This document shows, piece by piece, positions 2,471-45,409 of a stretch of DNA of 64,000 bases. The position numbers and the translations under genes are program-made. The stretch spans positions 1 to 64,000 of the forward strand of contig NZ_JAGETW010000006.1 of NCBI RefSeq assembly GCF_017571475.1. The letters are read 5' to 3'. The stretch is from Thiomicrorhabdus sp. 6S3-12 (lineage in GTDB: Bacteria > Pseudomonadota > Gammaproteobacteria > Thiomicrospirales > Thiomicrospiraceae). How positions within the stretch are numbered: the stretch's first letter is position 1; every line of letters begins with the position of its first letter. Below the pieces are notes generated by a model. The model was given only the letters and a program-made list of their open reading frames with translations. It was not told the DNA's origin and made no database searches.

Positions 2471-3295
2471 TTAGCTCAGGAAGTCGAGAATAGCATCAAG
2501 ACCGCGCTGGTTCAAAGAAGTCGTAGCTTGTTTCTGTACCGCCGGTTTAGCGTGGTAGGCAACACTGAGTCCCGCTTCTTGCATCATCAGCAAATCATTG
2601 GCGCCGTCGCCAACTGCAATCACCTGGTTTGGAGAAATATTCAACTCTGCACACAGCTCATTCAGGAAATCCGCTTTCGCCTGAGCACCGATAATACCGC
2701 CGACGACCGTCCCGTCGAGTTTACCGTCGCTTTCCGCCAGAACGTTGGCGCGAGCGTAATCCAGCCCCAGTTTAGTTTTCAGGCGGTCGGTAAAGTAGGT
2801 AAAGCCTCCGGAGACCAGAGCAAATTTAATCGTTTTGTCTTTCAATCCGCTGATTAACTCTCCTGCGCCCGGGTTCAGAGTCAGGCGTTCCTGATAGACA
2901 TGTTCCAGAGCGCTGTAGTCAAGGCCTTTAAGCAGCCCGACGCGTTGAGTCAGAGAACCTTCAAAGTCCAATTCTCCGCGCATGGCGGCTTCGGTAATGG
3001 CAGACACCTTGTCTTTGATGTTCATAAAATCGGCGATTTCATCTACGCATTCGATTGAGATCAGAGTGGAATCCATATCGCTGATTAGCAGTTTTACCTG
3101 CGAGCCATCAAAACTTTCCGGTAAAAGATTGATGTCGAGTTCCGACTCTTGACGCAACTCAAACAGTTTTTCGGCATCGATGTCGTTGCATGTAATGCGA
3201 TAGTGATTGTTGCAGGCTTGCAAATCACCGACGGATTTCAGTAGGGTATGTTGCGCATCGTTGAGCGTCGGGCTATGAATAATTAGGGTTGGCAT
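2471..3295 (-). CDS. serB: Phosphoserine phosphatase
   Basis: Last step of serine synthesis, hydrolysing phosphoserine. This HAD-family enzyme of 274 residues has the DMDST nucleophile motif at 73-77, the motif II serine at 162 (LVSGGF), lysine near 207 and GDGANDL at 229-235. The N-terminal 65 residues resemble the ACT-like region seen in gammaproteobacterial SerB. An AGGA ribosome site lies 6 bases before the start. It follows the RDD gene by 17 bases, so the two are probably cotranscribed. Confidence 0.95.
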   Translation of the reverse strand: MPTLIIHSPTLNDAQHTLLKSVGDLQACNNHYRITCNDIDAEKLFELRQESELDINLLPESFDGSQVKLLISDMDSTLISIECVDEIADFMNIKDKVSAITEAAMRGELDFEGSLTQRVGLLKGLDYSALEHVYQERLTLNPGAGELISGLKDKTIKFALVSGGFTYFTDRLKTKLGLDYARANVLAESDGKLDGTVVGGIIGAQAKADFLNELCAELNISPNQVIAVGDGANDLLMMQEAGLSVAYHAKPAVQKQATTSLNQRGLDAILDFLS

Positions 3296-3312
3296 TGCTT
3301 ATCCTGAATTGC

Positions 3313-3717
3313 TTAATCTGAAATGGGCACTATTTTAGTCTTTGCCAGTTGGTCGTGCAAAAGTTGTTTTTTCGGGGTGATAAAACCGATCAGGGTAAGG
3401 CCGAAAAAGAGTGTCAGTGGAACCGCAAGCAAAAAACGCAGATTGGCATTATGCCGTGTCAGAAGGTAGCCGTCTTCGCGCTGCAGTTGCAGCTTCCAGG
3501 TTCGTAAACCGGGTGTTTGACCGGACTGTGTCCAGAAATAGGTCAGGTACAGATAGGTGATGGCGATCAGGTAAAGTTGGAAGGCCAGATTGATTTTATC
3601 GTCGGTGGCAAATTCTCCGCTTCCCTGCCAAAGTACAAAAGGAATGCTGGCTGCAAACCAGATGGCGCAAAGTAAGATAAAATCGTATAGCATCGCAAAA
3701 ATAATTTTGAATGGCAT
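3313..3717 (-). CDS. RDD-family integral membrane protein
   Basis: A 134-residue protein with three or four membrane segments (about 7-28, 43-62, 96-116). The motif GQTPGLRTWKLQL in the middle is diagnostic of RDD proteins. The family's transport role is poorly defined; some members affect sodium/proton tolerance. It starts a two-gene unit with serB (17-base gap), an arrangement that gives no clear functional hint. Confidence 0.85.
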   Translation of the reverse strand: MPFKIIFAMLYDFILLCAIWFAASIPFVLWQGSGEFATDDKINLAFQLYLIAITYLYLTYFWTQSGQTPGLRTWKLQLQREDGYLLTRHNANLRFLLAVPLTLFFGLTLIGFITPKKQLLHDQLAKTKIVPISD

Positions 3718-3840
3718 GGCTCGGTTGTACTCAATTTCGTGTTTTCATTGAGAGCTTATTGTACCTAAGCGCGTGCTCTTTGTTTAAAAACCGTAATCGC
3801 AACGCTGTCATGTGACAAAGCTTGATTTAGGAGTCTGCAA

Positions 3841-4509
3841 ATGAATCTATATTCCGATCAGTTAAGTCTCAGTCTGCTGGTTTTCGGCTGGCTGAGTCTG
3901 TTGGCGATGTTGATCTGGTCCTTAAAGACGGCTCCGTGGTTTAAAGTTAAGGATGATCGCGGTGCCCAGAATATCTGGTTGTTCGTTTCGCTGGCGGTTT
4001 TTTTAATCTGGCAGCTCGGAGCCAGTTTAGGCGAGGGGATTACTTTTCATTTTCTGTTGATGACCCTGATGACGCTGATGTTCGGCGTTCAGTTCGCCTT
4101 TATGGGAATGCTGCTGGCATTGCTCGGCGTCACTTTTTATTCCGATTTGGGCTGGTGGAGTCTGGGGGTGAATGCCATTCTGATGGGCATGCTGCCGATT
4201 GCAATTACCCAGGGGATGTTGCGTTTGAGTCAACGTTATCTGGAGCAGAATTTCTTTGTGTATGTCTTTTTTAACGCCTTTTTAGCTGCCGGTATCGGTG
4301 TCGTAGTCGCGCTGCTCTTGGGTGGTCTGATCATGGGGTTGAACGAGGTGCACAGCTTTGACTATCTGGCACAACAGTATTTTCCGTTTATTCCGATGAT
4401 GGCTACGCCGGAAGGGTTTGTGAATGGAATGTTGATTGCGGCCATAGTGGCGTTAAAGCCGGAGTGGTTATGCAGCTTTAGCGACGATACCCATTTAAAG
4501 GGCAAATAG
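3841..4509 (+). CDS. CbiM-like energy-coupling-factor permease family membrane protein
   Basis: A 222-residue, very hydrophobic protein with about six membrane helices. The helix pattern and phrases such as LGVNAILMGMLPI and the late TPEGFVNGM recall the CbiM/COG3235 family of ECF transporter substrate components. No ECF ATPase or T-component gene is adjacent, so if it transports a metal or vitamin it must share a distant module or act alone. A TAGGAG ribosome site precedes the start, and it is a single-gene unit closed by a terminator. Family membership is from recall of the pattern. Confidence 0.65.
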   Translation: MNLYSDQLSLSLLVFGWLSLLAMLIWSLKTAPWFKVKDDRGAQNIWLFVSLAVFLIWQLGASLGEGITFHFLLMTLMTLMFGVQFAFMGMLLALLGVTFYSDLGWWSLGVNAILMGMLPIAITQGMLRLSQRYLEQNFFVYVFFNAFLAAGIGVVVALLLGGLIMGLNEVHSFDYLAQQYFPFIPMMATPEGFVNGMLIAAIVALKPEWLCSFSDDTHLKGK

Positions 4510-4546
4510 GCTGCGAATCGGCGGAGTAGCAGTTATATGCAGGCAA

Positions 4547-4575
4547 TAAAAAACCCGGAACAGGCCGGGTTTTTT
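4547..4575. terminator. Intrinsic terminator
   Basis: AACCCGG and CCGGGTT arms around a short loop, with A-run and T-run flanks. It can serve both the upstream plus-strand membrane protein and the minus-strand exported protein. Confidence 0.88.
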
Positions 4576-4609
4576 ACAGTCGACATCAGTGATGTCTGTC
4601 AGGATGGGA

Positions 4610-4927
4610 TTATTTTTCCCAACCCGCTTTAACATCTGCAGTCATCTGACGAACTTCGCCTTCTGCAGTTTTAAGTGCGAATTCAGCAGCAGTTTGCGCT
4701 TTTTTCATATCGCCTTTTTTCTTAGCTTCTTCGTACTGAGCGGCATAAGTATCGAAGTAAGGCTGTTTCATTTTTTTCTGTTTCCAGACAAAACCGCCGT
4801 CTTTCGCTTGGCTGTGTAGCTGTGCCGCTTTATCCATCATTGCATCGGTATCAGTGCTCGCATAAGCAGCTGAGTTGAAAGCAGATACTGCAAGCGTTAG
4901 AGCTACACCAGTTAGTAATTTTTTCAT
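4610..4927 (-). CDS. Small exported helical protein, SoxK/SoxAX-binding-protein-like
   Basis: A 105-residue protein with a clear Sec signal peptide (residues 1-23, cleavage after AYA). The mature part is a lysine-rich helical hairpin without cysteines. The arrangement of a GGFVWKQ segment, then EAKKKGDMKKAQTAAEFA and a final Glu/Lys-rich helix, resembles small SoxAX-binding proteins (SoxK/SAXB) of sulfur oxidisers. That is a weak pattern match made without a search. GGAGGACGACG upstream gives a strong ribosome site. It is monocistronic, with its own terminator. Confidence 0.5.
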   Translation of the reverse strand: MKKLLTGVALTLAVSAFNSAAYASTDTDAMMDKAAQLHSQAKDGGFVWKQKKMKQPYFDTYAAQYEEAKKKGDMKKAQTAAEFALKTAEGEVRQMTADVKAGWEK

Positions 4928-5309
4928 TCGTCGTCCTCCAAAATGTTATTTTGAGTTTAGTTCTTGCTTCTGTTGTTTTTGAAACCGCCAAACTCAGTTA
5001 ACTTGAGCTGTTTGATTTTTTTAGCTACTCGTTATGTCTGTATGTATTAAGCGGTGAAGAATGGCTGTTTCAAAGCAATTTTTCACTGTTTTTTACATAG
5101 ATGCATACGTTATTAAGTTTACCCCGTCCGTGTCAATCTTTATAATAGCCGTTAACTTAAAATATTGGGGTTGTTTTTCTTATAGTAAACCAAGAAAAAT
5201 TAATCTAAGTGATTGATTTTTATAGGTCTGTTTGTTTTTGCTGCGGATTTTAGCCGGTTTTAGAAAAATAACTAATTAGCCTATAAGCTTTTGTATAAGG
5301 TAGAAAGAA
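4928..5309. other. Divergent intergenic region upstream of guaB
   Basis: This 382-base AT-rich spacer separates two divergent genes. Besides the guaB promoter at 5118-5146 I see no ORF, no RNA gene and no strong hairpin. Confidence 0.6.
5118..5146 (+). promoter_or_regulatory. Probable sigma-70 promoter of guaB
   Basis: TTTACC, then 17 bases, then a perfect TATAAT (5141-5146). This leaves an untranslated leader of about 155 bases before guaB. Confidence 0.6.
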
Positions 5310-6770
5310 ATGAGAATATTGCAAGAAGCCCTCACTTTTGATGACGTTCTTTTGGTTCCTGCGCACTCGACTGTGTTGCCTAAAGATGTGTCATTGAAAA
5401 CTCAACTGACTCGAAACATTACGTTAAATATTCCATTCGTTTCTGCCGCTATGGATACGGTTACCGAAGCTCGTCTGGCCATTTCAATGGCGCAGGAAGG
5501 CGGTATCGGTATCATCCATAAAAATATGACCATCGAACAGCAGGCGCGTACCGTCAGCAAAGTGAAAAAATTCGAGCACGGTGTAATTTCCGATCCGGTT
5601 ACGGTTCAGAAAAACATGACTGTTGAAGAAGTGATTATCAAAACCAAAGACAACCGCGTTTCTTCTGCTCCGGTTATGGACGGCGATGATCTGGTAGGTA
5701 TTGTTACCAGTCGTGATATCCGCTTTGTTACCGACATGTCTCTGCCGGTTTCTGAAATCATGACACCGAAAGAGAAGCTGGTAACGGTTAAAGAAGGCAC
5801 CAGTCGCGAGGACGTTCTGGAGTTGTTGCACCAGCACCGTATTGAGCGTGTTCTGATCGTCAACGATAATTTCAAATTGCGCGGGATGATTACCGTTTCC
5901 GATATGATGAAATCTTCGGATCACCCGCATGCGAGCAAAGATGCCGAAGGTCGTCTTCGCGTCGGTGCTGCGGTCGGTACCGGTAAAGAAACCGAAGATC
6001 GTGTTAAAGCGCTGGTCGAAGCCGGTGTTGATGTCATTATCGTCGATACTGCCCACGGACATTCGCAAGGCGTATTGGATCGTGTTGCCTGGGTTAAACA
6101 GAATTATCCGCAAATCGATGTTATCGGCGGGAATATCGCAACCGGAGAAGCGGCTCTTGATCTGGTCAAAGCAGGTGCGGACGGTGTTAAGGTCGGTATC
6201 GGTCCAGGTTCGATCTGTACTACTCGTATTGTTGCCGGTGTTGGTGTACCACAGGTTTCGGCGATCTCGAATGTCGCTAAAGCACTGGAAGGCACCGGTG
6301 TCCCTTTGATTGCGGATGGCGGTATGCGCTTCTCCGGTGATGTTGCCAAGGCGATCGTCGCCGGTGCTTCGGCTTGTATGTTCGGTTCAATGTTTGCCGG
6401 TACCGAAGAATCTCCTGGTGAAATCGAATATCTGAAAGGCCGTGCCTATAAGTCATACCGCGGTATGGGATCTATGGGCGCTATGGCTCAGCCTACCGGT
6501 TCTTCGGATCGTTACTTCCAGTCGTCGAATGCGGAAGATAAATTGGTTCCTGAAGGGATTGAAGGTCGCGTTGCCTATAAGGGCCCGCTTTCTCCGATTA
6601 TTCACCAGCTGGCAGGTGGTCTGCGCTCGGCAATGGGATATACCGGTTGTAAAGATATCCAGACCATGAATAAGAAACCATCTTTTGTTCGTGTTACTTC
6701 TGCCGGTATGTCGGAAAGCCATGTACACGATGTTACGATTGTTAAAGAGGCACCGAACTATCGCATCTAG
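5310..6770 (+). CDS. guaB: Inosine-5'-monophosphate dehydrogenase
   Basis: Oxidises IMP to XMP with NAD, the committed step to guanine nucleotides. At 486 residues it has the usual bacterial length. A TIM barrel is interrupted at about 90-205 by two CBS domains. The catalytic loop [18 protein letters not shown] carries the active cysteine, and the flap region ([12 protein letters not shown]) is intact. The gene is followed by guaA as in most gammaproteobacteria, with a strong hairpin in the 94-base gap that may set the ratio of the two proteins. Confidence 0.98.
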
Positions 6771-9421: not shown

Positions 9422-9997
9422 ATGCAGATTAGTATTGATCCGGCCGAAGGGATTACGTCCGTAAAAATTTTACCGGGTGAGTTCTACGTCACCCAAGATA
9501 ATGAAAGGATTGAAACGGTTCTTGGATCCTGCATTGCCGCCTGCGTCCGTGATCCTATCGCCGGTGTCGGGGGCATGAATCATTTTATGCTCCCGGTGGA
9601 AAAAAATACCGCTTCCGTATCCGAACTTTCCGATGCCAACCGTTACGGAAACTATGCGATGGAGAATCTGGTTAACTCGATTCTGACCAAGGGCGGTCGA
9701 CGTGAGCGTTTGGAATTCAAGCTGTTCGGTGGTGGACGGATTATGAGTTCGATGACTAATATCGGTTGGTACAACATCGGCTTTGCCTTTGACTATGTCT
9801 ATACCGAAGGCTTTCAGCTGGTGGCCCAGGACATCGGAGATATTTTCCCGCGCAAAGTGATCTATTACCCGAACAGCGGACGCGCACGGGTCCGCCGACT
9901 GAACCCTATGCATAATCAAAGTCTTGCCGCACAGGAAAATCAATATATTCACAACATCGAATCGAAACCTGTTGAAGGCGATGTAGAACTATTCTGA
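9422..9997 (+). CDS. cheD: Chemoreceptor glutamine deamidase CheD
   Basis: Deamidates glutamines on methyl-accepting chemotaxis proteins and interacts with CheC-type phosphatases in some bacteria. The 191-residue protein has the catalytic triad residues T32, C37 (GSCIAAC) and H54 (GMNHFM) and the KLFGG motif. The C-terminal tail ends in DVELF, similar to the ends of the CheZ-like protein and the chemoreceptor of this window. Its stop is 10 bases before cheA and the cheA ribosome site overlaps this gap, so both are cotranscribed. Confidence 0.95.
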   Translation: MQISIDPAEGITSVKILPGEFYVTQDNERIETVLGSCIAACVRDPIAGVGGMNHFMLPVEKNTASVSELSDANRYGNYAMENLVNSILTKGGRRERLEFKLFGGGRIMSSMTNIGWYNIGFAFDYVYTEGFQLVAQDIGDIFPRKVIYYPNSGRARVRRLNPMHNQSLAAQENQYIHNIESKPVEGDVELF

Positions 9998-10007
9998 GGA
10001 AATAACT

Positions 10008-12092
10008 ATGGACATGATGGAAACCTTCCGCCAAACCTATCTGGAAGAGAGTTTTGAAGGACTCGATGTGATGGAGAACGGATTGCTCAATCTTCCGCCG
10101 GGTATCCCGGATAACGAGAAGATTAACGAGATCTTCCGCGCGGCGCACTCTATCAAAGGGGGGAGCGGAACTTTCGGCTTTACCGAAATTGCCGGTTTTA
10201 CTCATGTTCTGGAAACCTTGTTGGATGAAATGCGTGACGGCCGCCGCGAGGTCACTCAGGACTCGATCGATGCCATGCTGGCTGCAGTGGACGTGTTGCG
10301 CGATATGCTGGAACGTCTGCAGGAGCATCAACCCATAGACGAGCAGCGAGCGGGCGAGGTTCAGGCCTGGATGGAGAATATTCTCGGCGCTTCTTCCGAG
10401 GCGGCCGGGCAGGACGCATCTGCCGAACCCGAAGCGGTTGGCGGAACTTGGAAAATAGACATGATTCCCGAGGCGGAACTGCTGCAGACGGGTAATGAGC
10501 CGATTCGAATTTTCCGCGAACTGGAAACGCTAGGTGATCTGAAAGTAACCGCCAATACCGAAAAACTCCCGGAAATTCATGCTTTCAATCCGGAACATGT
10601 TTACCTTTCCTGGACCCTGGAACTGGAAGGCGAGGAGGTTAACGAAGAAGCGATTCGCGAAGTTTTCGAATGGATCGATGGCGATGGTGCCGAGATTCAT
10701 ATCCATCCGCCGCAGAAGTCCGAAACGCCTGTAGCTGAAGCAGCGCCTGCACAACCGTCTGCCGATGTGAGCGAAACTGCGCCGGCGGTTGCGGAACAGC
10801 CGAAGCAGGAGACTGCGGCTGCGCCGGCTCAGAAAACGTCGGCCAAAGCCAAGGCGGTTGCCGATAAAGGGCATAAGGCTGAAGGTTCTATTCGTGTCGA
10901 TTTGAGCAAAATCGATCAGCTGGTTAATCTGGTTGGTGAATTGGTTATTACTCAGTCAATGCTGAGTCAGTTCGGCGAGCAGGCGGAGGATGGCGAAAGC
11001 AATACCAATACGGATTGGGTTGATAAGCTCAAGGAAGGTTTGACGCACTTGGAACGCCACACCCGCGAGCTGCAGGAAAGCGTGATGAATATCCGTATGC
11101 TGCCGGTCAGTTTCGCCTTTAACCGTATGCCGCGTATCGTGCATGATGTCAGCCAGAAACTGGGCAAGAAAATAGATCTGGTCATGGAAGGGGAAGGAAC
11201 GGAGCTGGATAAAACCATGCTTGAACAGTTGACCGACCCGTTGGTGCACATTGTGCGTAACTCAATTGATCACGGTGTGGAAATGCCTGCAATACGTGCG
11301 GAAAAAGGCAAGCCTGAAACCGGTACGGTCAAGATGGCCGCTTTCCATCAGGGCGGGAATATTCTGATTCAGATTACCGACGACGGTGCAGGGATCGATC
11401 ATGAACGCATTGAACAGAAAGCGATCGAAAAAGGCGTTATCGATGCGGAACATCACCTGACGCGTGACGAAATTATCGATTTGATTTTCCATCCGGGCTT
11501 TTCGACCGCAGAACAGATCAGCGATATTTCCGGACGCGGTGTCGGTATGGATGTGGTTCGCCGAAATATCAAAGGGCTTGGCGGCTCGGTTGACGTTAAA
11601 ACTGAAAAAGGCGTCGGCAGTGTCTTTACCATTCGTTTGCCGCTGACGCTGGCGATTTTGGACGGACAGCTATGTACAGTCGGGTCACAGACGTATGTCT
11701 TCCCTCTGGTATCGATTATCGAGTCGATTCAGGTAGACAAATCCCTGGTCAAAGGGATTGCCGGCGAGACCGAACTGTATAAGTTGCGAGACGCCTATAT
11801 TCCGGTCATTCGACTGCATAAAAAGCTTGGCGTCCATGATGCTCAGGAAGATTTGGAAAAAGGTTTGTTGGTCGTGGTTGAAGACGGCGGACAACGGGCC
11901 GGGATTTTTGTCGATGATCTGCTCGGACAGCAGCAGGTCGTCATTAAGAGTCTGGAAAGCAACTTTATGAAGATCGATGGTATTGCCGGTGCGACCATTC
12001 TTGGAGACGGAACGGTTTCGCTTATTCTCGACGTTACAGAAACCCTGTCGAATCATAATAAGGGAAGCGGTGCGCAACTGAGTGCCGCCTGA
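10008..12092 (+). CDS. cheA: Chemotaxis histidine kinase CheA
   Basis: Central kinase that phosphorylates CheY and CheB. Domains in 694 residues: P1 Hpt with phosphorylated H47 (AAHSIKGGSGTFGF); a P2-like domain at about 145-235; an Ala/Pro/Gln-rich linker (240-285); P3 dimerisation (290-365); P4 ATPase with the N-box HIVRNSIDHGVE and G-boxes DDGAGID and GRGVGMD; and a CheW-like P5 domain (about 550-690). A GAGGAAA ribosome site precedes the start. It sits between cheD and a CheZ-like gene; cheY, cheW and cheB/R are not in the window. Confidence 0.97.
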   Translation: MDMMETFRQTYLEESFEGLDVMENGLLNLPPGIPDNEKINEIFRAAHSIKGGSGTFGFTEIAGFTHVLETLLDEMRDGRREVTQDSIDAMLAAVDVLRDMLERLQEHQPIDEQRAGEVQAWMENILGASSEAAGQDASAEPEAVGGTWKIDMIPEAELLQTGNEPIRIFRELETLGDLKVTANTEKLPEIHAFNPEHVYLSWTLELEGEEVNEEAIREVFEWIDGDGAEIHIHPPQKSETPVAEAAPAQPSADVSETAPAVAEQPKQETAAAPAQKTSAKAKAVADKGHKAEGSIRVDLSKIDQLVNLVGELVITQSMLSQFGEQAEDGESNTNTDWVDKLKEGLTHLERHTRELQESVMNIRMLPVSFAFNRMPRIVHDVSQKLGKKIDLVMEGEGTELDKTMLEQLTDPLVHIVRNSIDHGVEMPAIRAEKGKPETGTVKMAAFHQGGNILIQITDDGAGIDHERIEQKAIEKGVIDAEHHLTRDEIIDLIFHPGFSTAEQISDISGRGVGMDVVRRNIKGLGGSVDVKTEKGVGSVFTIRLPLTLAILDGQLCTVGSQTYVFPLVSIIESIQVDKSLVKGIAGETELYKLRDAYIPVIRLHKKLGVHDAQEDLEKGLLVVVEDGGQRAGIFVDDLLGQQQVVIKSLESNFMKIDGIAGATILGDGTVSLILDVTETLSNHNKGSGAQLSAA

Positions 12093-12145
12093 AAATAAGA
12101 GCTATAAATGCCACACGCTTTCGGGCGTGCAGTTTAGGAAACAAT

Positions 12146-12724
12146 ATGAATAATTTTGATTACTCTTTGGGCGCAAAAGAGGTACAGCAGACGATACTGA
12201 TTTTGAATTTATCGATTGCTCAAATTGACTTGTCGATTACCGAAGGGGATAACTCGGTCAATGCACTGATCGATTCTTTCACCTATATGTCTCAGCATAT
12301 CGAACAGATTCAGGCAGCAAGTCGGAATCTGCTTGAGCAGGCCGAAGAGGCGGGCAGCTCGATGCAGTCGCACAGCAGTCTTCTGTTGAGCGAAGCCGGT
12401 GAGCTTTCCGCAAAAATGCAGCAGGCGATTATCGCCTTCCAGTTTTACGATAAATTGAGTCAGCGTTTGTCGCATGTTTCTCACGGTCTTTCCGGTTTGG
12501 CGGAAATCGTTTCGCATGAAATGCGCGTTAAGAGTCCGCAGGAGTGGGAAGACTTTAAGGCCAGTGTGCGTAAAGGAACGACTATGCGTGAAGAAGAGGA
12601 GTTATTTGAATTGATTTTCGATCAGCATGTGCCGGCCGAAGAGGCGATTGAAGTAATGAAAGATCGTATGCGTTCGCGTATGCATGAAGAAGAACAGGCT
12701 GAGGACGAGGTAGAGTTCTTCTAG
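12146..12724 (+). CDS. CheZ-like chemotaxis phosphatase candidate
   Basis: A 192-residue, mostly helical, soluble protein directly downstream of cheA (53-base gap containing a small CACGC/GCGTG hairpin). It lacks strong overall likeness to E. coli CheZ that I can see. However, the helix IIAFQFYDKLSQRLSHV has an Asp-x3-Gln pair (D102, Q106), the same spacing as the catalytic pair of CheZ (QDLTGQ). As in CheZ, an acidic flexible C-terminus ends in a hydrophobic tip (EDEVEFF). I infer a CheY-P phosphatase of diverged type; a structural coiled-coil protein is the alternative. Confidence 0.6.
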   Translation: MNNFDYSLGAKEVQQTILILNLSIAQIDLSITEGDNSVNALIDSFTYMSQHIEQIQAASRNLLEQAEEAGSSMQSHSSLLLSEAGELSAKMQQAIIAFQFYDKLSQRLSHVSHGLSGLAEIVSHEMRVKSPQEWEDFKASVRKGTTMREEEELFELIFDQHVPAEEAIEVMKDRMRSRMHEEEQAEDEVEFF

Positions 12725-42958: not shown

Positions 42959-45409
42959 TTAGAACTCTTCCCAACTTTCGTCGGTTGTATTCTTTTTGAG
43001 CGGGCTAATAATTTCCGGTTTGGACGCCGGCTGCTCTTTGGCCCCTTGGTTTTGCGGTTTGGATCTTTCGATCTTTGTCGCGCTGCTTGGATTTGTTGCG
43101 ATTGCAGCAGGTTGGGTTCCGTGCGCTTTTTGAGAATTTCTTCTGGCTTGTTCGGTGAATTCGACAGCGATTTTGAATTGCTGCATGCGTTCGACAAGTC
43201 CCGATGTTTGCTGTTCGATTGAGGCGACACTTCGGGCAGAATCTTCGACGAGAACGGCGTTCTCCTGGGTGTTGCTGTCCAGCGAAGCAATCGCCTGGTT
43301 TAATTGCTCGACGCCTTGAGCCTGTTCGTTCGATGAGGCGGCAATTTCAGCGACAATACTGGTGACCTGTTGGATTGCATCATTGATTTCGTTGAGTGAA
43401 TCGCCCGAGTTTTGCGCCAGTTGGGTACCTTGCTGAATTTTTTCAACCGAGCGATCGATCAGGCCTTTAATCTCTTTGGCGGCATCGGCGGATTTTCCTG
43501 CCAAAGCGCGTACTTCACCGGCTACAACGGCAAATCCTCGACCGTGTTCACCGGCACGTGCTGCTTCTACAGCCGCGTTGAGAGCCAGTAGGTTGGTCTG
43601 GAAGGCGATGGAGTCGATAAGGCCGATGATCTGCTCGATCTGTTCCGAAGAAGTTTTAATCTGTTGCATGGCGTCAATGGTTTGCGCCATGATTGCAGCC
43701 CCTTGCTGGGTTTTTTGCGAGGCTTTTTCGGTTAACTGATCCGCCTGTTGTGCGTTTGAGGCGTTGTTGCGGATCGTCGAGGTCATCTCTTCCATTGTTG
43801 CAGCGGTCTGTTCAATTGACGCCGCTTGTTGCTGGATTCGTCCGGAGAGGTTTTCATTGCGGATGGATGTTGCTCTCATGTCTTCGGCAATACCGTGTAC
43901 AACATGGTTTACCTCCGCCAGTGTATGCGACAGGTTGTCCAGTGAGCTGTTAATGGCATCTTTGATCTCGCCCAAGCCGCCTTCGTATTCGCCTTGTACG
44001 CGATGGGTTAAATCACTTTCAGCCAGTGCATGGATTGCATCGGCAATATTGTGGTTGGCTGTAGCGATGGCGCTGGACATATGGTTAATCTGTTCGCCCA
44101 AGTCATAGATAAAGCCGTCGAGAACGCTGACATCGATCTGCTCGCCGATATGACCTTTAGCGGCTTTCTCTACCATGGTTTTCAGATTGGTTTCGACTTT
44201 GGATTGCATTTCTGCCATCTTCGCTTCTTGAGTAACGTCTTTCCACTCGGTGACAAAGCCCTCGCGGGAACCGTCGATATTCCAAATTGGGTTAACAATA
44301 ATTTTAAGGTGGAGTTCTCCGAGCGAGAGATCGGCGATATAGGTCTCTTTCAGCTCTTTCAATAGTTTGCGCTGATGGGCCGGATTTACGTGGAAGATGT
44401 CGATGTTTTTGCCGATCAAGTCATCCGCCTTGAAATGTGGGAGCATTTTCTGGATGTCCGCTTCAACGTTTTTCAGGGTTTTTAAGATCGACTCGTTCAT
44501 ATAGGTGATATTGAGATCTTCGTCCGCGATCATAATGTTCGACGTGCTTTGGTCGACAACGTGAGTGATGATTTCCGCTTTGTTCATATTGCAGCGAATC
44601 GCGCGGATCATGCAGTTGATATATTGTCCGAGTTTATGGGTTTCCGCTGATCCGGTTTCCGGCATGACCGCATCCAGATTCATGCCTTCTTCGTTCGGGA
44701 AGGCGGTAAGAATGCTGTCGCGCAAGGCCACGATCGGCTTGACCAGACGTTGTCGAACCAGCAGTTCTATCGCCAAGAAGTTAATCAGGATAAGGATGAT
44801 GACGAAGGTGAGCAGTTCGGTTACGCGAAAAGTGGCGCTTTCCTGGTTTAGCTGTGTGATTTTGGCATCGCTGGTGGTTTCGATGTATTTAAACCAGGCT
44901 TCTTTGGCTTTAATGGCTGGCCGGTCATCAACGACGACCTGGCTGTCAATATAGTCAGCCGGCGCGCCCTGTTGTTTGAGTTCCAAGACGATCTGCGCTT
45001 TTTGCGCGAATTCGTTGACGGTGTTGCGAATGGTCTCGATTGATTCGCTTTCTATTGGCGAAAGGTCGCCTAAATTTTGGTATTTTTGCAGCGCCTGGTT
45101 GAGGTTTTTGACGTTGTCGTTAAAGGCTTCGAGATAGCTGGAGGTGCGGTAATCGCTATCGCCACGCAGGATGAAATTCTTGAAGTTGTGAATAAATTGT
45201 CCGTAACCGAGTTGGGCATCGATTTCATGGAAAGTTTTGCGCTTTTCCTGAATGTTGGCGTGTAAAGTTTCCAGTTCGGTGTTGTATTGCTTATCAACTG
45301 CAATATAGATAGAGACTCCGATGATATTGATCGCTAGAAACAGGATCGTGTAGATCGTCAGGAGAAGTTTAATGGACTTTCCGGTGTTGCCTTTTTCCAT
45401 GCTTGACAT
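42959..45409 (-). CDS. Methyl-accepting chemotaxis protein with PAS domain
   Basis: A membrane chemoreceptor of 816 residues. Helices at about 13-36 and 200-218 bound a helical periplasmic domain (about 37-195). A PAS domain (about 285-390) precedes the signalling region. The highly conserved hairpin tip ([23 protein letters not shown] followed by [15 protein letters not shown]) is intact. The tail after the signalling helices is a Pro/Ser/Lys-rich linker ending SWEEF, an xWxxF pentapeptide that docks CheR/CheB in other bacteria. Monocistronic. Confidence 0.95.

Follow-up and report, generated by a model that had tools for sequence, protein, structure and literature searches.

We analysed a 64,000-nucleotide stretch of contig NZ_JAGETW010000006.1 of Thiomicrorhabdus sp. 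6S3-12 (the window), in which cheD, cheA and the gene of a CheZ-like protein follow one another on the forward strand and a chemoreceptor is encoded further along on the reverse strand (Table 1). The feature under study is the C-terminal tail of these proteins. The initial annotation had read DVELF at the end of CheD, EVEFF at the end of the CheZ-like protein and SWEEF at the end of the receptor, and all three ends are present on their open reading frames. It had joined them under the pattern x-[VW]-E-x-F, as a tag that echoes the receptor pentapeptide and would bring the three proteins to a common partner. This pattern indeed fits the three ends, but it merges two different motifs. In CheD and the CheZ-like protein, the five terminal residues, [DE]-[VI]-E-[LF]-F, would form a short linear docking motif: judging from the sequences, they probably represent a second, distinct C-terminal motif that is carried by several chemotaxis proteins and stands apart from the W-x-x-F receptor tag recruiting CheR and CheB.

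Both its domain and its fold identify the first of these proteins as CheD. It scores 232.8 bits against the NCBIfam model NF010013 (cut-off 223), in an alignment that reaches the model end at the last CheD residue, and 84.8 bits against Pfam PF03975, and its predicted fold resembles that of T. maritima CheD (2f9z_C, E 4.8e-14). The fold is thus common to the window protein and the CheC-CheD pair of Thermotoga and Bacillus; the window CheD differs from T. maritima CheD, whose aligned chain counts 154 residues, by a C-terminal extension that bears the tail. In the structural models, residues 185-191 of CheD and residues 186-192 of the CheZ-like protein lie below 50 in predicted local distance difference test (pLDDT), and the last helix of the latter is drawn, at low confidence, to residue 189. 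Intramolecular docking of the tail was considered and set aside, as both models leave the tail below this value; such a low score is compatible with docking in a complex. Neither CheD nor the CheZ-like protein matches MCPsignal up to E 1 in Pfam, and neither qualifies as a receptor. The receptor of the window matches it at 170.3 bits, above the cut-off, with weaker PAS/HAMP matches; its top NCBIfam model is Aer2 (NF041847), at 424.9 bits and under the cut-off of 1200 set for that model.

Conservation and carriers of the tail

The CheZ-like tail was compared in the window protein and 80 relatives fetched by whole-protein similarity (n=81). Position 5 is F in all 81 sequences. Position 4 is L in 61, F in 19 and I in one; position 3 is E in 74 and D in seven; position 2 is I in 53, V in 24, D in two and F in two, and never W; position 1 is D in 53, E in 24, P in two, and Q and N in one each. 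The tail has an entropy of 0.74 bits and no gaps, as against 2.15 bits and 13% gaps over the 25 positions before it. F192 belongs to the 18 invariant columns in an alignment of 49 sequences, and just 34-39% identity to the window protein is found for 27 of the 48 aligned relatives. The CheD tail (n=37) is C-terminally exact in 36 sequences, with one extra residue in the 37th; its position 2 is I or V in 34 and V, I or A in 36 (the 37th being shifted by one residue), again without W, and its entropy is 0.32 bits versus 1.06 bits before it. Ends that vary while the rest of the protein is conserved would speak against a shared tag; this outcome was sought in both families and the opposite was found. 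Since the tail is conserved in CheD and in the CheZ-like protein, the proposal of a shared tag with a shared partner gains support, whereas the proposed echo of the receptor pentapeptide is not supported, positions 2 and 4 being different. In two genomes (loci L057 and L061, about 3270-6567), both tails differ at position 2, with CheD ending DAELF and the CheZ-like protein EDELF, possibly a linked change.

A wider sample was drawn from 199 genomes of the phylum and comprised 70 CheD loci, of which 30 were the best-scoring and 40 were hand-picked from the other matches; because 40 loci were chosen and most CheDs of the short type omitted, the fractions that it gives are biased. An exact end [VIFA][DE][LFMI]F occurs in 25 of the 70, and [VILFA][DE][LFMI]F falls within the last 12 residues in 35 of them, position 2 being L in two. 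No tail is present on the short CheDs, which have about 160 residues.

How often such an end occurs was assessed with the strict pattern GANRTNGARYTNTTYTRR, i.e. [DE][VIM]E[LF]F-stop, and with the pattern read backwards as control. The 2.55-Mb genome holds exactly three matches (control, one), and all are ends of chemotaxis genes, the only three that carry the tail in this genome: CheD, the CheZ-like protein and a 435-residue receptor-like frame (L019:13315-14619) directly after cheR-cheB, which are the sole cheR above the family cut-off and the sole cheB of the genome. This third carrier ends NTESMDEGEIELF; its last residues, EIELF, its MCPsignal domain and its position after cheR-cheB mark it as McpA-like, P. 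aeruginosa McpA having been compared by description. The genes of the pathway fall into two groups on one contig: those for CheD, CheA and the CheZ-like protein lie at 9422-12724, and those for CheR, CheB and the McpA-like receptor (G000:C16:145054-148621) at a distance of about 133 kb.

A looser pattern, [VI][DE][LF]F-stop, finds 20 matches in this genome versus 14 in the control. Besides the same three genes, these comprise five sites ending in TGG with no stop, 11 ends of short frames (8-63 residues), and one frame of 230 residues lying opposite a frame of 601. This count, together with the shortness of the motif and with PIDLF ending two long frames of one sampled genome (read without a search as a penicillin-binding protein and PriA), would suit the view that acidic C-termini with a final F are widespread and have no function, and that the tail arose by convergent chance. 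We regard this as very improbable. The 60 genomes of the order give 168 matches against 42 in the control, the matches of the stricter pattern in this genome all belong to chemotaxis, and the final F is kept throughout the CheZ-like set beyond a variable linker; the conservation counts already contradict chance. Seven of the 60 genomes have no match. In four of them (G016, G017, G020 and G053) no CheR exceeds the family cut-off, and in two (G018 and G019) the CheR is of the short-loop type; the CheZ-like gene is missing from all six, some of which are incomplete. In the seventh, G035, the tails escape the pattern, its CheZ-like protein ending EDELF.

The tail is not confined to these families. 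McpA-like proteins were assigned by best BLAST match in loci fetched regardless of its presence, and all 11 bear it, one with an ambiguous codon; several of the 11 are closely related and two come from one genome. Tailed McpA-like receptors occur in 13 genomes of the order including this one, which is not a fair count, as the others were fetched by pattern match. The tail also ends 12 frames with diguanylate cyclase features from 11 genomes of the order, chosen by pattern; the motif GGEEF is found in 11 of these, L141 having been judged by its end alone, and Pfam GGDEF was confirmed in one of the 12 (one run) and in two cyclases from other genomes. Among wider relatives, it is found on three further receptors (L228, L244 and L248) and on two receiver proteins without other Pfam domains (L238 and L246). 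The latter two, at L238:121-1515 and L246:1504-2715, possess a long C-terminal region that belongs to no Pfam family. A second, diverged CheZ-like copy at G021:C1:2275193-2275783 (L177), of 48% identity, has the tail in its end TEVEFF.

Table 1 Features of the window that bear on the C-terminal tail
Feature	Position	Strand	Remarks
CheD, chemoreceptor glutamine deamidase	9422..9997	+	191 residues, ends ...EGDVELF
CheD tail DVELF	9980..9994	+	stop 9995-9997
CheA kinase, same cluster	10008..12092	+	Hpt, H-kinase_dim, HATPase and CheW domains
CheZ-like protein	12146..12724	+	192 residues, ends ...AEDEVEFF; predicted long helical hairpin, then shorter helices and tail
QFxDxxxQ motif, as FQFYDKLSQR, in CheZ-like protein	12437..12466	+	putative phosphatase site for phosphorylated CheY; D102 and Q106 invariant
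CheZ-like tail EVEFF	12707..12721	+	stop 12722-12724
Aer2-like chemoreceptor	42959..45409	-	816 residues, ends ...TDESWEEF
Receptor pentapeptide SWEEF, classical CheR/CheB tag type	42962..42976	-	fits xZxxZ (PMC7390727)

Comparison with the receptor pentapeptide

The classical pentapeptide, which tethers CheR and CheB (NWETF of Tar and Tsr, GWEEF of McpB and Aer2), resembles the tail in that both consist of five C-terminal residues, are acidic, finish with F and follow a flexible linker. The tail differs in being aliphatic rather than aromatic at position 2, hydrophobic rather than polar at position 4, and present on proteins that are not receptors. Four of the 15 receptors of this genome are tagged, and their tags have an aromatic residue at position 2 and E at position 4; E at position 3 is not general, since the tags other than SWEEF read EWSEF, EWEEF and EWSEF. 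CheR tags are described as needing aromatics at positions 2 and 5, i.e. xZxxZ with Z aromatic (PMC7390727). The final residue is F, W or Y in 81 of 81 CheZ-like proteins and in 36 of 37 CheDs. Position 2 is aromatic in SWEEF and in none of the CheD tails, and among CheZ-like tails just the two with F have an aromatic residue there.

In P. aeruginosa McpA, position 2 is a valine, which has been reported to prevent the interaction with all four CheRs (PMC7184735, citing earlier work), and the role of the conserved C-terminus of McpA-like receptors was termed important yet unclear by Ortega et al. (PMC7184735). That C-terminus (P. aeruginosa McpA, PA0180) is like the tail in its V at position 2 and in its conservation. 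We infer that V. cholerae Mlp44 also belongs among the McpA-like receptors. The available part of PMC7184735 does not mention the same tail on CheD, on a CheZ-like protein or on cyclases. Papers on CheD, the C-terminal pentapeptide and CheR (PMC12654446, PMC2577667, PMC11940527, PMC7184735, PMC3062574, PMC6391922) describe, in their available parts, no such CheD tail, and no paper was found on VELF or IELF C-termini in chemotaxis; most subscription papers fall outside this coverage, so that it is weak evidence of novelty.

Several observations weigh against a motif separate from the receptor tag, or against details of it. A review on V. cholerae proposes, from unpublished methylation data, CheR3 as the binding partner of those System III receptors that end E-W/V-E-X-F (PMC11940527). 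Shewanella McpA carrying a C-terminal green fluorescent protein still clusters at the pole (PMC9855816); the fusion is compatible with polar clustering, and a free tail is therefore unneeded for it. In the phylum sample, one or two residues follow the motif in eight of the 35 CheDs that have it, so that a free carboxylate is not a strict requirement. The tail is also one residue shorter than the FliM/CheZ-type core with which it is compared below. Finally, the 43 CheR rows near a tailed CheD comprise 32 of the long-loop type, seven whose loops have 15-16 residues but do not satisfy the glycine rule and four short ones (three from cut windows); with loop segments of 15-16 residues in 39 of the 43, CheR has to be kept among the candidates.

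These CheR rows and the proposed CheR3 site agree with an alternative in which the tail would be a variant of the CheR/CheB pentapeptide, so that the CheR beta-subdomain or the CheB linker, next to the receptors, would serve as docking site for CheD and the CheZ-like protein. This appears possible but unlikely to us. In its favor, the place, the acidic character and the hydrophobic-x-x-F spacing are the same, and the McpA-like gene adjoins cheR-cheB. Furthermore, the sole CheR of this genome to exceed the family cut-off belongs to the pentapeptide type, with a long beta-loop whose 16-residue segment contains KGTGAREG; it keeps G188, G190 and G194 of the Salmonella enzyme and has K at 187 and 197. 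A longer beta-loop is described for CheRs of organisms with pentapeptide receptors (PMC3062574), and the contact residues of the loop are named in PMC2577667. On the other hand, position 4 of the tail is hydrophobic and position 2 never W, and P. aeruginosa McpA, with its valine, is reported to bind none of four CheRs (PMC7184735). Colwellia G078 and the metagenome-assembled G072, which may be incomplete, encode a tailed CheZ-like protein with a short-loop CheR as the one match each, and the CheRs adjoining tailed CheDs in L257, L269, L279 and L281 lack the loop glycine pattern.

The comparison of loop type with tail is low in power, because the CheRs near CheD are nearly all long-loop, tail or not; the rows near a CheD scored as having no tail are eight long-loop and one other. 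Single cases were used, since the underlying table counts at least two clusters twice (L221/L234 and L124/L240), includes the cut windows L283, L288 and L290, and takes for L210 an overlapping wrong frame as CheD (the real one ends NNVELF). A CheR above the cut-off is present in 36 of the 36 genomes reached via tailed CheZ-like loci, which makes some chemotaxis partner plausible.

The CheZ-like protein as a candidate phosphatase

The CheZ-like protein has no NCBIfam match, and its single Pfam match up to E 1 is at chance level (E 0.89). The CheZ family PF04344 does not match it up to E 1 and is not among the matches listed (25 of 131 families) for 49 relatives; the NCBIfam CheZ model NF041271 gives weak matches in five of 49 CheZ-like relatives, the best at E 0.0054. 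Within 49 CheZ-like sequences, AFQFYDKL-QR is invariant, including D102 and Q106. In the model, of fair mean pLDDT (69.6), two long helices span residues 10-66 and 71-125, and the motif lies in the second, which places DxxxQ in a helical hairpin. DxxxQ is the catalytic motif of CheZ and marks that enzyme. A related motif, SLQFxDxxxQ, shows no variation among 17 McpA-like receptors; an alignment of both families covers 65 columns and includes QFxDxxxQ (hhalign E 1.3e-4, probability 54%).

A true CheZ (PF04344) is encoded elsewhere in the genome. CheZ and the CheZ-like protein have in common a predicted long helical hairpin, DxxxQ and a C-terminal peptide after a variable linker; they differ in their terminal peptides and show no significant sequence match. 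Homology to the CheZ of this genome was rejected, the motifs being in register in an alignment that is not significant (hhalign probability 0.1%). Superposition of the model on 1kmi_Z gives Z 9.9 and a root-mean-square deviation of 4.0 over 119 aligned residues, tied with unrelated helical chains. With Foldseek, nothing reached E <= 0.001, and chemoreceptor signalling domains featured prominently among the top-ranking structures; the PDB sequences found in a profile search were mostly helical proteins, one of them a designed coiled coil.

The CheZ-like gene stands amid che genes in seven loci (L090, L099, L101, L103, L110, L120 and L124), adjoining cheR and cheD in six, in an order that resembles F7 systems as described in PMC7184735; elsewhere it frequently occurs as an orphan gene, for instance behind pilSR-like genes. 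F7 clusters are described as lacking a cheZ (PMC7184735), and the CheZ-like protein, with its invariant QFxDxxxQ and no Pfam family, may be a candidate phosphatase for them.

Candidate partners of the tail

In the reading as a second docking motif, the flexible tail would tether CheD, the CheZ-like protein and the McpA-like receptor, and in relatives the cyclases and receiver proteins, to one chemosensory component; such tethering would thereby raise their local concentration at the array. We infer that the tail binds something, that the partner is common to its carriers and that it is not, in general, the CheR pocket. Our leading guess, a tentative one, is a receiver domain, either CheY or that of CheB, because two tailed families look like phosphatases of phosphorylated CheY (CheY-P) and because the motif resembles known CheY ligands. 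The CheR pocket or the CheB linker comes second, with a rather lower likelihood, and what remains is left to CheA, CheW or another part.

The FliM-type CheY-binding motif has an acidic-aliphatic-acidic core that resembles both the tail and repeats in the second CheA of this genome. The canonical CheZ (PF04344) ends SQDDVDDLLSDLGI, and the second CheA holds three DDEFEALL repeats, both similar to the core of the tail; written as [DE][IVF][DE], this core matches the two proteins. It is therefore conceivable, if still the lesser prospect, that the tail is a CheY-docking peptide, a counterpart of the CheZ C-terminus and the FliM N-terminus, which would allow CheY-P to recruit or regulate CheD, the putative CheZ-like phosphatase, McpA-like receptors and cyclases. 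The invariant QFxDxxxQ of two tailed families, DxxxQ included, and their alignment across 65 columns are consistent with this, and it would fit genomes such as Colwellia G078 in which just one CheR was found. Conversely, the likeness of a three-residue motif is weak, the last hydrophobics are spaced differently, and the CheDs of L292, L297 and L309, from other classes of the phylum, end VTLF, ITLF and VQLF, without an acidic residue. In the second CheA (G000:C16:139473-141611; L019:5474-7612), the three near-identical repeats read PEGVDPDG[ED]ITDDEFEALLNQRD and precede the kinase core.

Diguanylate cyclases and orphan CheZ-like genes outside che clusters also carry the tail, as would be expected if it were a tag for polar localization or degradation without specificity for chemotaxis, read by a hub of the FimV/HubP type or by a protease adaptor. 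We consider this improbable. The FimV C-terminal model is found in none of seven genomes (this one and six relatives) and in 32 of 36 other genomes examined, and FimV/HubP is therefore no general partner and was rejected as such. Moreover, the six no-match genomes without a CheZ-like gene, some of them incomplete, have no CheR above the cut-off or a short-loop one. A beta-clamp-type motif, QLxLF, was dropped as well, the tail having no Q.

A broader proposal, which we put forward as doubtful for now, would make [DE][VI]E[LF]F a second proteobacterial tethering code that recruits CheD, a new family of CheY-P phosphatases (the CheZ-like proteins and the McpA-like receptors with QFxDxxxQ) and diguanylate cyclases to one site, with the CheZ-like protein as the missing phosphatase of F7 systems. 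If true, this code would link adaptation, signal termination and cyclic di-GMP output, and F7 clusters would gain their candidate phosphatase. That CheD, the CheZ-like protein and cyclases all bear this tail makes the puzzle of the McpA-like C-terminus (PMC7184735) testable, by asking what is common to its carriers. It also warns against taking every C-terminal Phi-E-x-F for a CheR site. A different flavor of pentapeptide is seen in L212 and L210, second chemotaxis clusters whose receptors end DFERF or DFEKF and whose CheR loop reads GVRSxxG.

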